Assembly (NCBI GenBank): GCA_903825575.1
Contig: CAIKAW010000020.1
Location: 1-32,216, forward strand
Direction: 5' to 3'
Length of the DNA stretch: 32,216 nt
Origin: an uncultured bacterium
Lineage (GTDB): Bacteria; Actinomycetota; Actinomycetes; S36-B12; CAIKAW01
Shown here: positions 14,126 to 21,888 of the stretch, one piece after another
Layout of the letters: every line of letters begins with the position of its first letter
Position numbering within the stretch: position 1 is the first letter of the stretch
Notes under the pieces: generated by a model
The model's database searches: none
What the model saw: only the letters and a program-made list of their open reading frames with translations
What the model was told of the DNA's origin: nothing
Translations under genes and position numbers: made by a program

Positions 14126-16815
<2,690 letters not shown>

Positions 16816-16847: not shown

Positions 16848-17459
16848 TCAGCGCAGGAAACCCCAGCGGAAGCCGAGGGCAACCGCTTGCGCCCGATCTG
16901 CCGCCTGAAGCTTGCGAAACAGTCGACGGGCATGAGTCTTGACTGTGTCTTCGGAAAGGTAGAGCTCACGGCCGATCTCGGCGTTGCTACAGCCGCGACT
17001 CATTCCGTCAAGAACTTGCCGCTCCCGATCAGTCAACGGCGGCGGTGGTCCAAGTCCAGCCATGCTCTTGCCATTCGAGCTTGCGCGTTCGGGGGCAAGT
17101 AGCGCGGTAAGTGTGGCAGCAACTTCTTCGGCCGCGGCATTCTTGGCTAGGTAACCCCTCGCTCCGTGGCCAACTGCCCGAGCCACGCCATCGTGATCCT
17201 CGCCCTGAGTCAGCATGACCACCAGAGAGTCGGGGTGAGACCCAGAAAGGCGTCGAACTGTTTCGATCCCGCCAATACCGGGCATCCGGACGTCAAGCAG
17301 GACCAGGTCGGGCCGTTCCAAGGGGAAGCGAGCCAGCACTTCTTCACCGCTTCCGGCGGCGCTGACCCGCGCTACTCCCGGTACTCCGGCGACAGCACGG
17401 CGCAGAGTCTCACGTGCCAAAGGCGCGTCGTCACAAACCAAAATGGTCCACCCGTTCAT
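16848..17459 (-). CDS. bldM: BldM-type orphan response regulator (REC + LuxR HTH)
   Basis: This is a 203 aa NarL/FixJ-type regulator, the same length as Streptomyces BldM. The receiver domain (1-118) keeps the full phosphorylation pocket: D10, D11, D56, T84 and K106. A Pro/Gly-rich linker leads to a LuxR-type HTH (140-203: LTDRERQVLDGMSRG, then SEDTVKTHARRLFRKL) and the BldM-like tail ALGFRWGFLR. The ATG at 17459 has GAGG upstream; a GTG two codons earlier is less well placed. No histidine kinase is encoded nearby. In Streptomyces bldM lies beside whiD and guaB, and here it is beside guaB and three genes from the whiD-type gene. It presumably binds DNA as a dimer and controls growth-phase or developmental genes. 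Confidence 0.88.
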   Translation of the reverse strand: MNGWTILVCDDAPLARETLRRAVAGVPGVARVSAAGSGEEVLARFPLERPDLVLLDVRMPGIGGIETVRRLSGSHPDSLVVMLTQGEDHDGVARAVGHGARGYLAKNAAAEEVAATLTALLAPERASSNGKSMAGLGPPPPLTDRERQVLDGMSRGCSNAEIGRELYLSEDTVKTHARRLFRKLQAADRAQAVALGFRWGFLR

Positions 17460-17493
17460 GCTCACCGCCTCGGCCCATTGTCTGATCTCACTG

Positions 17494-17510
17494 ACCTGTC
17501 TTCGGCAGGT
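17494..17510. other. Small hairpin upstream of bldM
   Basis: The inverted repeat ACCTG-N7-CAGGT sits in the 58-base gap between the TPR gene stop and bldM. The stem is short and lacks a T-run on the minus strand. It could be a weak terminator or an operator; I cannot separate these. Confidence 0.2.
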
Positions 17511-17523
17511 TTGCTTGCCTCCT

Positions 17524-18450
17524 TCAGTCCCGAACTGGTGCGACTATTTGCGAGCCTAGAAGGTCGGCCACGTCAGGGCGGGCCAGCCAGTCCCACCGGA
17601 GCTCCTCGGGCAGGTCCGCCGTCAACCGCTCCACAACAGATTTAGCTGAGGCGAGCTGGCGTGAGGACTCGCCCGGATCTGTTTGCGCCAACAATCGCCC
17701 GAGGAGCGCGCGCGCTGGCCAAACGACAGGCAGTGCCCCCACATTTTCGGCCAACCGACCGGCCCGACGAAGCGCGACCGTAGCTGTTTGGACATCGCCT
17801 TCCAGAACGTGCGATACGCCCACAAACAGCAGACTCTTCGCCACGTGGCGGGGCGCTCCGGATTGTTCGGCCAGCTTTACGGCCGCCGTTGCAAATCCCA
17901 GGGCCTCACCGGCCCGGCCCTGCCAGATACCTAGTTCCGCTCGAGTCCAGTCACGACGGACGCGTTGGCGCCACCAGTCCGGCCGCGCCGCTGCCAACTC
18001 TGACGCAAGCTCTAACTGCTCGGTTGCCGCCGGTGGATCACCGAGACCAATCGCGTCGGAGGCAAGTCCCAGTCTGGCGTCAAAAACTGCCGCGGCGACC
18101 CCAAATGAGAGTCCCAACGCTTCCTCGTCCAACGAGCGGGCTAACTGGTGTTGGCCCAGCGCCCGGTAGGCCGCAGCACTGGCAGCGGCTGCTAAGGAGG
18201 CATAACGGTGGGGTTCGACGGCATCGACCACCATCGCCCGCAAGGTTGCAAACACCTCAAGCCCGGCGGCGAATCTACCCACGGCCGTGTGACAAGCGCC
18301 AAGTAGCCACGTTGCGGACGCGGCTTCGGCGGGGTGACCGGTTGCGTGCGCAAGTTCAATTGCCTGTTCCAGGGTGGCAACTCCGGACGCGGGGCTGCCA
18401 CGAAAAGCGGCTCGTTCGCCGGCCGCGAGTAAGCCGGCCAGATCCTCCAC
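17524..18450 (-). CDS. Uncharacterised TPR-like helical-repeat protein
   Basis: This 308 aa, Ala/Leu-rich, entirely helical-looking protein has no signal peptide or membrane segment. Successive antiparallel helix pairs of about 34-40 residues (for example GVATLEQAIELAHATGHPAEA, read as helix A, then ATWLLGACHTAVGRFAAGLEVF as helix B) look like degenerate tetratricopeptide repeats. They resemble the sensor arms of MalT/LAL-type regulators, but no ATPase or DNA-binding domain is present. I do not recognise a named family. The GTG start has AGGAG seven bases upstream. It lies between a MerR-B12 regulator (55 bases before) and bldM (58 bases after) on the same strand, so a scaffold or partner role in that regulatory unit is an inference from context. 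Confidence 0.75.
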   Translation of the reverse strand: MEDLAGLLAAGERAAFRGSPASGVATLEQAIELAHATGHPAEAASATWLLGACHTAVGRFAAGLEVFATLRAMVVDAVEPHRYASLAAAASAAAYRALGQHQLARSLDEEALGLSFGVAAAVFDARLGLASDAIGLGDPPAATEQLELASELAAARPDWWRQRVRRDWTRAELGIWQGRAGEALGFATAAVKLAEQSGAPRHVAKSLLFVGVSHVLEGDVQTATVALRRAGRLAENVGALPVVWPARALLGRLLAQTDPGESSRQLASAKSVVERLTADLPEELRWDWLARPDVADLLGSQIVAPVRD

Positions 18451-18465
18451 GCATCGACTCCTGTC

Positions 18466-18488
18466 CTTGACTACTCAGGCTAGTCAAG
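18466..18488. promoter_or_regulatory. Perfect inverted repeat between the MerR-B12 and TPR genes
   Basis: CTTGACTA-N7-TAGTCAAG is a perfect 8-bp inverted repeat centred in the 55-base gap. On the minus strand its right half can serve as a TAGTCA -10, with TTGCGT 16 bases upstream, so it may be an operator over a weak promoter for the TPR gene. A terminator for the MerR gene is the alternative; no T-run follows. Confidence 0.45.
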
Positions 18489-18505: not shown

Positions 18506-19393
18506 TTAGTCGGCCGCCCACGCCGCCAATTGGGTGACCGCCTGCCCGAGAGATTCAAACTTGGCCCACCCTGCTGGCGGCGATGTACTCCAGCCCGGTC
18601 CGCCAATTGCCCAACGTGGCGCCGGGCGAATCGTGCTTATAGCGCTCAGGTCTACCGCATTGTGAATTGATGACCACAGAATCACTGCCCGCGGACCGGT
18701 GCGGCGCACAGCCAACATCAACGAATCAAACGGCACTCGTGCCCCCAAGAACCGGGTGCCCACCCCTAGCTCGGCTAGGGCGGCCGCAATGGCCTCCAGC
18801 GGCAGGGTGTGCTGCTCGTTCGGCGCCGAGGCCAAAAGGATCGGCCGATCATTCAAGTGCTTAGTAGCTGCATAAGTTGTCCGCGAGAATGCGGCCGATA
18901 CGACCTCGGAGAGCGCGTGCTCGGTGTCCACTCCCAACCCGCTTCGACTCCAGGTATCCCCGAAGGCAGCCATCGTGGGCAGGAGCAGGTCGTCCCAAGT
19001 CCAGACAACGCCGTTTGCTTCGATCGCCTCTGAAATCAACTCGGCCGCGGCCCTGACGTCGAGGGCCAAACTCGATGCCTTTAACCCTTGGACCATCGCC
19101 GCGGTAGCAGCGCGGTCAGGGAGTCCAGCTGGCGGCGCCGGAGGTTGCGGGGGTTGGGTGGTCGGCGCCGGTGCCGCCAGCACTGCCGCGGCAGCATCGC
19201 GAGGTGTGAATCCGGTGCGCACCAGCCGCTGCATGTGCTCGAGCCGAGCAAGATCGCCAGCGCTATAACGGCGGTGGGTCCCCTCCCGATGTTCGGATGG
19301 CCCCAAGCCATACCGGTGATCCCAGGTTCGCAGCGTCGCTGGTGCCACCCCTAACCGGCGTGCCACCAAAGCCACAGATAACCCCTGATCCAT
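18506..19393 (-). CDS. MerR-family regulator with B12-binding photoreceptor-like domain (CarH/LitR type)
   Basis: This is a 295 aa regulator. Residues 4-60 form a MerR winged helix (VARRLGVAPATLRTWDHRYG, then HRRYSAGDLARL). A Pro/Ala-rich linker (70-93) leads to a helical bundle and a Rossmann-like cobalamin domain. The photoreceptor signature Wx9EH is exact (W148, E158, H159), and the lower-ligand motif ExH is E193-Q-H195, 36 residues after H159 (35 in Thermus CarH). The residue after the Trp, which is the light-state His ligand in CarH, is S149. By family knowledge, AdoCbl-bound tetramers repress in the dark and fall apart in light. I chose the ATG at 19393; GTG codons at 19423 and 19429 are possible. 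It is divergent from whiB and upstream of the TPR gene and bldM. Confidence 0.87.
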   Translation of the reverse strand: MDQGLSVALVARRLGVAPATLRTWDHRYGLGPSEHREGTHRRYSAGDLARLEHMQRLVRTGFTPRDAAAAVLAAPAPTTQPPQPPAPPAGLPDRAATAAMVQGLKASSLALDVRAAAELISEAIEANGVVWTWDDLLLPTMAAFGDTWSRSGLGVDTEHALSEVVSAAFSRTTYAATKHLNDRPILLASAPNEQHTLPLEAIAAALAELGVGTRFLGARVPFDSLMLAVRRTGPRAVILWSSIHNAVDLSAISTIRPAPRWAIGGPGWSTSPPAGWAKFESLGQAVTQLAAWAAD

Positions 19394-19399
19394 GACTGA

Positions 19400-19405
19400 A
19401 TTGTC
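19400..19405 (-). promoter_or_regulatory. Candidate -10 for the MerR-B12 gene
   Basis: GACAAT on the minus strand lies six bases before the ATG at 19393, which has no ribosome site. This fits a leaderless start. The match to TATAAT is four of six and no -35 is evident. Confidence 0.25.
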
Positions 19406-19440
19406 TTGTGATTCCCCCCACACCGCCACTCGAAAGGCCG

Positions 19441-19512: not shown

Positions 19513-19797
19513 ATGGCTGACGTCACCCGGCTCCCGGGCCCACTGGCTGACTGGTGGGATTGGCAGATTTCAGCTGCCTGCCGCGGGCTCGATTCCTCGG
19601 TCTTCTTCCACCCCGAGGGTGAACGCGGCCCAGCGCGAAGGCGTCGGGCCAGCGCAGCCAAGGAGATCTGCTCAACCTGCCCGGTCCAGGCTGCCTGCGC
19701 CGCGCATGCACTTAAAGTCCGCGAGCCCTACGGGATCTGGGGCGGACTAGCTGAAGAGGACCGCGATGCCGTCGCCGCCGGGCGCCGCAGCGCGTGA
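19513..19797 (+). CDS. WhiB-family Fe-S transcription factor (WhiD/WhiB3 type)
   Basis: This is a 94 aa Wbl protein. Four Cys ligands for a 4Fe-4S cluster are visible at C23, C53, C56 and C62 (C-x29-C-x2-C-x5-C). They are followed by the G-I-W-G-G turn (74-78) and an Arg-ending basic tail for DNA or sigma-factor contact. Such proteins sense O2/NO and act with the primary sigma factor. The ATG at 19513 is chosen for its strong GGAGGAAACC ribosome site; the open frame upstream to 19408 crosses the promoter. Its position next to groEL1 and close to bldM matches whiB3 of M. tuberculosis and whiD of Streptomyces, which supports that subfamily, but subfamily identity needs a tree. It stands alone on the plus strand. 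Confidence 0.92.
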   Translation: MADVTRLPGPLADWWDWQISAACRGLDSSVFFHPEGERGPARRRRASAAKEICSTCPVQAACAAHALKVREPYGIWGGLAEEDRDAVAAGRRSA

Positions 19798-19888: not shown

Positions 19889-21580
<1,692 letters not shown>

Positions 21581-21588
21581 CTATCAGC

Positions 21589-21888
21589 TCACTTCTCGAC
21601 GATTGCGAGCACGTCGCGCGCCGAGAGGATGAGGTATTCCTGGCCGTTGTACTTCACTTCGGTGCCGCCGTACTTCGAGTAGACGACAACGTCGCCCTCG
21701 TTGATGTCCAGCGGTACGCGCTTAGAACCACTCTCATCGAACCGACCCGGACCAACCGCGATGACCTTGCCCTCTTGCGGCTTTTCCTTGGCGGTGTCCG
21801 GGATTACAAGTCCGGACGCCGTCGTCTGTTCGGCGTCGAGCGGCTGCACGAGGATCCGGTCCTCGAGCGGCTTAATGGAGACCGACAC
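21589..21888 (-). CDS. groES: Co-chaperonin GroES
   Basis: This is the 99 aa, 10-kDa co-chaperonin that caps GroEL. The sequence has the usual [23 protein letters not shown] mobile-loop region (about 5-30), the VVAVGPG-type roof segment (here [13 protein letters not shown]), and the [24 protein letters not shown] core. The start is GTG with GGGGGAGG seven bases upstream. It is the first gene of the groES-groEL1 operon under two CIRCE operators, so heat-shock control through HrcA is expected. hrcA itself is not in the window. Confidence 0.97.

Follow-up and report, generated by a model that had tools for sequence, protein, structure and literature searches.

A conserved stand-alone TPR protein beside bldM, a candidate receptor or adaptor in an actinobacterial regulatory cluster

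In Mycobacterium tuberculosis, the binding-peak data published for PhoP and GlnR list Rv3415c as the neighbour of whiB3 (Rv3416) (PMC4038636, PMC4950008), Rv3414c is given as sigD (PMC6265350, PMC10865790), and WhiB3 is referred to as the orthologue of WhiD (PMC4255298). In Streptomyces, BldM is described as an orphan, phosphorylation-independent response regulator, which works with its phosphorylation site removed (PMC4125116); if its activity needs no phosphorylation, something else must set it. A 2022 paper presents the control of ShbA activity as previously unknown and describes ShbA as reading its own promoter in vitro (PMC9205884). The tetratricopeptide-repeat (TPR) protein RapF is reported to block the response regulator ComA by binding its DNA-binding domain (PMC3246441), and the CarH-type B12 photoreceptors are characterized by a Wx9EH motif and by D/E-x-H-x2-G/P as part of the B12 motif (PMC9304148).

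The window analysed here, a stretch of 32,216 nucleotides from an uncultured member of the Actinomycetes (contig CAIKAW010000020.1), contains a gene for a TPR protein between two transcription regulators (Table 1). Going by the locus numbers of sigD (Rv3414c), Rv3415c and whiB3 (Rv3416), it belongs by position to the Rv3415c family, a name which rests on the place of the gene in M. tuberculosis. Here it is proposed, tentatively, that the protein is a groove-binding TPR receptor or adaptor, which may tune a neighbouring regulator of an old actinobacterial regulatory cluster. In the open-licence literature, nothing was found joining bldM, whiB and tetratricopeptide, nor Nanopelagicales and bldM, nor anything on MSMEG_1598, a presumed locus number.

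The TPR protein, its fold and its gene cluster

The TPR gene has a GTG start and encodes 308 amino acids. The Pfam family TPR_12 scores 35.6 bits (cut-off 30.1) over three stretches of the protein and TPR_MalT stays below threshold (23.2 bits, cut-off 45); besides TPR families, nothing in Pfam passed its cut-off, including any helix-turn-helix (HTH) domain. No NCBIfam model matched up to E 1, so that it has no named family there. The AlphaFold2 model, computed from 51 sequences (window and 50 relatives), has a mean pLDDT of 95.7 and a pTM of 0.92, with 16 helices in a solenoid and a short C-terminal cap. The TPR_12 match and these tandem helix-turn-helix pairs place it among the TPR proteins, as the preliminary description had supposed from 308 residues of repeats with no other domain. 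The relative from Mycolicibacterium xanthum (pLDDT 94.3, 27 sequences) is predicted to have the same kind of fold, with an extended stretch in place of the second helix of the first pair. Conservation of the minus-strand protein argued against a chance origin of the frame and against the overlapping plus-strand open reading frames at 17166-17645 and 17889-18470.

With the model as query, the best Foldseek E-values belonged to eukaryotic LGN, and Rap was reached at 7.5e-5. Structural alignment against 965 chains ranked human APC5 and APPBP2 first (Z 25.1), and the bacterial matches included MalT domain III (1hz4; Z 23.9, 3.7 A over 281 residues, 13% identity), phi3T Rap (Z 22.9), NprR (19.5) and AimR (19.1); bacterial entries were mainly regulators, though all are TPR folds. 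In PDB sequence searches, the single sequence reached a best E of 0.052 and the profile found MamA (6e-4) and NprR (5dbk, 0.0035), in neither case a close relative. The model and its structural matches disfavour an enzyme or an unrelated fold. The TPR assignment is supported.

The likeness to the repeat arm of MalT/LAL regulators that was first suggested holds for the fold and does not hold as a unique resemblance, with APC5, APPBP2 and Rap similarly close. Since TPR folds match one another widely, the fold supports a receptor- or scaffold-type TPR protein and does not single out MalT. A split LAL/MalT regulator, in which the protein would be the detached sensor arm of a separate ATPase and HTH protein, is very improbable: the domain III match, the sub-threshold TPR_MalT score and the many weak profile hits in open frames of about 1000 amino acids or more, probably LAL-like, speak for it, but other TPR folds match as well as MalT does, and no partner ATPase turned up among the genes looked at. 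The family is as yet uncharacterised and can be seen as a variation on known TPR regulators.

Table 1. Features of the window around the TPR gene. The names guaB2, guaB3, groEL and groES are presumed.
Feature	Position	Strand	Basis and remarks
guaB3 (IMP dehydrogenase family)	14126..15241	-	ORF, synteny; 4-base overlap with guaB2
guaB2 (IMP dehydrogenase)	15238..16761	-	ORF, synteny; 86 bases downstream of bldM
BldM-type response regulator (receiver and LuxR/GerE HTH)	16848..17465	-	Pfam; homology; position in relatives
TPR gene, stand-alone protein	17524..18450	-	ORF, Pfam TPR_12, AlphaFold2 model, relatives
MerR regulator, CarH-like B12-binding region	18506..19393	-	Pfam MerR_1, B12-binding_2; B12 motifs; ORF 18506-19429, ATG at 19393 chosen as start
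WhiB-family gene, divergent, in WhiB3 place	19513..19797	+	Pfam Whib 84.6 bits; synteny; start 19513 chosen
groEL, upstream edge of conserved cluster	19889..21514	-	ORF, synteny
groES	21589..21888	-	ORF, synteny

The merR gene precedes the TPR gene at a distance of 55 bases, and the BldM-type gene, with homologues at 47-76% identity and a name taken from homology and position rather than from a family model, follows it after 58 bases. Together with the distance to guaB2, the spacings of 55, 58 and 86 bases are operon-like, and from them merR, the TPR gene, bldM and guaB2 would be co-transcribed. A terminator scan of the cluster found no terminator-like site between the genes, but the total of such sites did not exceed that in shuffled sequences, and a promoter scan found none.

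The two flanking regulators are as first described, with a receiver and GerE HTH on one side and a MerR HTH with a B12-binding helical domain on the other. In the MerR protein, PF02310, the Rossmann part of B12 binding, is below its cut-off. The NCBIfam CarH model scores 81.3 bits, far below its cut-off of 400, so the protein is classed by sequence as CarH-like and not as CarH. Across 36 relatives and the window, the Wx9EH motif is kept at W148 (37/37), E158 (36/37) and H159 (37/37), and the ExHxxP lower-ligand motif at E193 (36/37), H195 (36/37) and P198 (35/37). The protein fits CarH in Wx9EH and D/E-x-H-x2-G/P, a comparison which covers these parts of the B12 motif. It is possibly a sensor of B12 or of light that heads the bldM operon.

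Spread of the family and its neighbourhood

Relatives of the TPR protein were aligned from 21 other genomes at 28-54% identity, with matches in 28 genomes, its own included, in the search of 60 relatives. The resulting 22-row profile matched 135 of 394 genomes of the class, and a stand-alone copy is present in 91 of the 394, the window's own included; the other 44 matching genomes, among them G028 and some of the presumed Streptomyces (f24), were not counted as holders, their hits being weak and mostly in long open frames. In the phylum sample, 34 of 198 genomes matched, some weakly and some being class members already counted. The best 80 of 231 relatives in a named scan include Actinomycetes, Nanopelagicales and Frankiales bins, Saccharothrix algeriensis, Nocardia sp. 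NRRL S-836 and many Mycobacterium, Mycolicibacterium and Mycobacteroides. Members read as mycobacterial (f9) matched at E 4e-12 to 2e-51 with a profile holding no mycobacterial row, and they carry the same invariant residues as the window protein. By profile and invariants, as well as by its place in the groE-whiB-guaB cluster, the window protein falls in the whiB3-sigD TPR family (Rv3415c group). In one f9 genome (G375, locus L248), the TPR gene matches in two separate pieces and is maybe frameshifted.

The neighbourhood was compared in 100 flanked loci from other genomes (90 further profile holders and 10 from relatives, up to about 8 kb per side), leaving out G048, where the TPR gene is split over two contigs. 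groE or guaB genes lie beside the TPR gene in all 100, guaB2 in 88 and groEL in 79, several loci being cut by contig ends. Of the cluster genes that were looked for, the first to follow the TPR gene is a same-strand bldM in 56 loci, at up to 320 bases in 47 of them and at 724-1200 bases in nine. In 31 loci it is a SigD/ShbA-type sigma gene, never more than 320 bases away, in five it is guaB2 and in four an inverted bldM; the remaining four have none before the contig end. A next searched-for gene was thus found in 96 loci, and in 91 of these it is bldM or a sigma gene. Upstream, the nearest searched-for gene is that of MerR in 38 loci, WhiB in 37 and GroEL in 21. The fullest gene order, GroES, GroEL, WhiB, MerR, TPR, BldM, ShbA, guaB2 and guaB3, was found in Saccharothrix (L148) and Nocardia sp. 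NRRL S-836 (L118). Fusions of the TPR protein to BldM or sigma, judged through gene distances in the 100 loci (smallest 66 bases), were not seen. In f24, bldM was found in 39 genomes and the profile search gave no stand-alone TPR family member; in one example (G076:C1:5305907-5307663), bldM lies about 620 bases before shbA.

In the mycobacterial type, a sigma gene follows the TPR gene in 44 of 46 named loci (L107-L154 without L118 and L148), and no BldM or MerR hit exceeds 60 bits in any of them. Similarly, all 34 f9 loci are without a BldM or MerR hit, and 31 of them have the sigma gene; in one mycobacterial copy (L061), the adjoining sigma protein scores 318.6 bits on the NCBIfam ShbA model (cut-off 209). 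The simplest reading of these gene orders is one ancestral cluster, from which mycobacteria would have lost BldM and MerR and most of the window's order would have lost the sigma gene.

Five loci read across the stretch, two from the window's order and three mycobacterial, have the TPR gene without BldM or SigD and with the frame intact; G081 is a sixth such holder, but on a short contig. The two of the window's order keep TPR, MerR and WhiB. In the three f9 loci without a SigD hit (L232, L236, L245), the TPR frames are open (266-278 amino acids); a stop inside the profile match was flagged in two of these three genomes, yet the frames are open in all. L232 has another gene between the TPR gene and guaB2. 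The mycobacterial loci L120 and L132, without a sigma hit, also keep an open TPR frame.

The constancy of guaB2 and groEL as neighbours raises another reading, in which the protein would have no part in transcription and would be a general helper of the local metabolic or folding genes (GroEL, IMP dehydrogenase). Those two proteins occur in almost all genomes, unlike the TPR gene with its 91 of 394 class genomes, and both the position of bldM or a sigma gene next to it in 91 of 96 loci and the regulators that dominate its bacterial fold matches, though all TPR folds, speak against such a role, which is considered distinctly improbable.

Inside the class, then, the neighbourhood is non-random, as expected from the preliminary description, which had named neighbourhood conservation as a check; outside it, different neighbours stand beside the gene in the small number of loci read, and this change counts against a fixed TPR-BldM link. 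In another class (f57, loci L155-L158), the TPR relative has a phosphomannomutase gene on one side and, on the other, a short gene that adjoins a DUF3499 gene, Pfam having been run on the genes of L158 and the other three matched to it by eye. In L156, there is a WhiB hit about 7.3 kb from the TPR relative. In the f71 locus L159 (7038-9769), groEL is about 3.1 kb from the relative, which is directly followed by a gene for a SpoIIE-type phosphatase. The search for the cluster genes also covered L160 and L166.

A conserved groove and its candidate partners

Twelve positions are invariant in 29 of 29 members, a choice from 74 loci including four mycobacterial members and four from other classes: W48, G58, R96, G128, D132, R161, R165, W168, E172, A183, H202 and K205. 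Nine of them, each an Arg, Lys, His, Asp, Glu or Trp, lie on A helices; in TPR proteins it is these helices that usually line the concave face, or groove. Conservation averages 2.67 bits on helices A3-A7 vs 2.02 bits on B2-B6 (p 2e-5), and of the 38 positions kept in both BldM-type and mycobacterial rows, 21 are on A3-A7 and six on B2-B6. Positions kept in BldM-type rows only are mainly on A1, A2, A6, B6 and loops. A natural reading, short of a demonstration, would be one shared ligand together with lineage-specific contacts. A groove common to the BldM and SigD lineages argues that its ligand is neither BldM nor SigD.

In the proposed mechanism, the A-helix groove would bind one conserved ligand, likeliest a negatively charged peptide or protein tail, and the loaded or empty TPR arm would contact an adjacent transcription regulator and change its activity. 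The likeliest target would be BldM, an orphan response regulator, in the window's lineage; in mycobacteria it would be SigD, or a factor common to both lineages. The mode may be akin to that of RapF on ComA, with no claim of membership among Rap proteins. The TPR fold, the cluster position, the invariant groove set and the likeness to the regulatory MalT domain III, Rap, NprR and AimR speak for a receptor or adaptor.

Co-occurrence was scored at E 1e-30 for ShbA/SigD and E 1e-40 for BldM. A BldM or ShbA/SigD-like match is present in 85 of 91 TPR holders vs 111 of 303 other genomes, counts which are uncorrected for kinship and may include sigma paralogues. BldM is present in 54 of 57 TPR holders outside f9. 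In the window's order, it is present in 16 of 18 holders vs none of 21 listed non-holders (20 genomes listed and G028). Against BldM tuning, 63 of 117 BldM-positive genomes are without the TPR gene, 39 of them f24, the five loci described above have it without BldM or SigD, and four have bldM inverted. Additionally, the nine loci with a gap of 724-1200 bases to bldM leave room for another gene. The inverted copies are in L169, L252, L255 and L257, where the two genes can therefore share no transcript.

Since the 34 f9 loci are without BldM and MerR and two loci of the window's order are without BldM, contact with them is not the general function; on these gene contents, neither BldM nor MerR can be the only partner across the family, while within the lineage of the window the protein may still be linked to BldM.

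Correlated divergence was compared as partial correlations. Given GroEL (n=21), TPR-MerR reached 0.81, TPR-BldM 0.65 (0/2000 permutations) and TPR-WhiB 0.41; given GroEL and guaB2 (n=37), TPR-BldM was 0.26 (48/2000 permutations). In 29 mycobacterial loci, TPR-sigma was 0.40 given guaB2, and TPR-WhiB was -0.13. Fast genes follow the distances between species more closely, which makes such evidence weak, and the permutations leave shared ancestry in; the correlations are hints only.

The strongest of these correlations would fit a relay in which, within the lineage of the window, the TPR arm passes or tunes a B12 or light signal from MerR to the operon. MerR is also the nearest searched-for gene upstream in 38 of the 100 loci and keeps its B12-binding motifs. 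However, TPR and MerR both evolve fast, which inflates their correlation, and MerR is in none of the 34 f9 loci and absent from 28 of the 66 others, some of which end at a contig edge. Such a relay is regarded as quite unlikely.

A partner common to all lineages could instead be the divergent WhiB3/WhiD, or the surface of sigma/RNA polymerase used by WhiB proteins, with the TPR protein as a WhiB cofactor and the nearness of BldM or SigD a matter of cluster inheritance. WhiB lies beside the TPR gene in all 34 f9 loci, including the three without SigD, and is kept in the two BldM-less loci of the window's order; by contrast, 22 of 50 non-f9 loci have no WhiB hit within a complete groE-guaB interval, though WhiB may lie elsewhere, and the divergence correlation of TPR and WhiB is weaker. 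On balance a WhiB cofactor appears rather unlikely.

The groove-binding receptor or adaptor acting on a neighbouring regulator thus stays the preferred, if tentative, reading. A bolder form of it, which is speculative and held to be fairly unlikely, would make a single ancestral TPR receptor with an invariant ligand groove the input of signals that has so far been missing from the whiB3/whiD-bldM-shbA/sigD node, reporting the same metabolite or peptide state to SigD/WhiB3 in mycobacteria and to the orphan BldM in the others, and standing behind a CarH-like B12 light sensor in the window's lineage.

Comparison with known regulatory systems

The TPR protein shares with MalT/LAL regulators a MalT-like TPR superhelix, itself shared by other TPR folds, and it differs from them in missing the TPR_MalT gathering score and in having neither an N-terminal STAND ATPase nor a C-terminal LuxR HTH in the same chain. 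Rap, NprR and AimR (RRNPP) have a comparable TPR receptor fold (Z 18-23); however, identity is 7-13% and Pfam found no HTH on the TPR protein such as precedes the repeats in PlcR and NprR. Where Rap has a 3-helix bundle ahead of its repeats, the alignments of the protein start at residue 97 of phi3T Rap but at residue 7 of RapF.

The mycobacterial gene between whiB3 and sigD is like that of the window in profile family, invariant residues, kind of fold and cluster. It differs in having no bldM or merR beside it, and in an N-terminal pair and a C-terminal cap unlike those of the window protein. The neighbour of the window gene corresponds to the orphan BldM of Streptomyces; the presumed Streptomyces genomes differ in having BldM without the stand-alone TPR family member in the search. 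In 91 of the 96 loci with a next searched-for gene, none of the genes looked for lies nearer to bldM or shbA/sigD than the TPR gene, which is also present in the 34 sampled f9 genomes. Its product is a possible unrecognised receptor or adaptor feeding growth and stress regulators.
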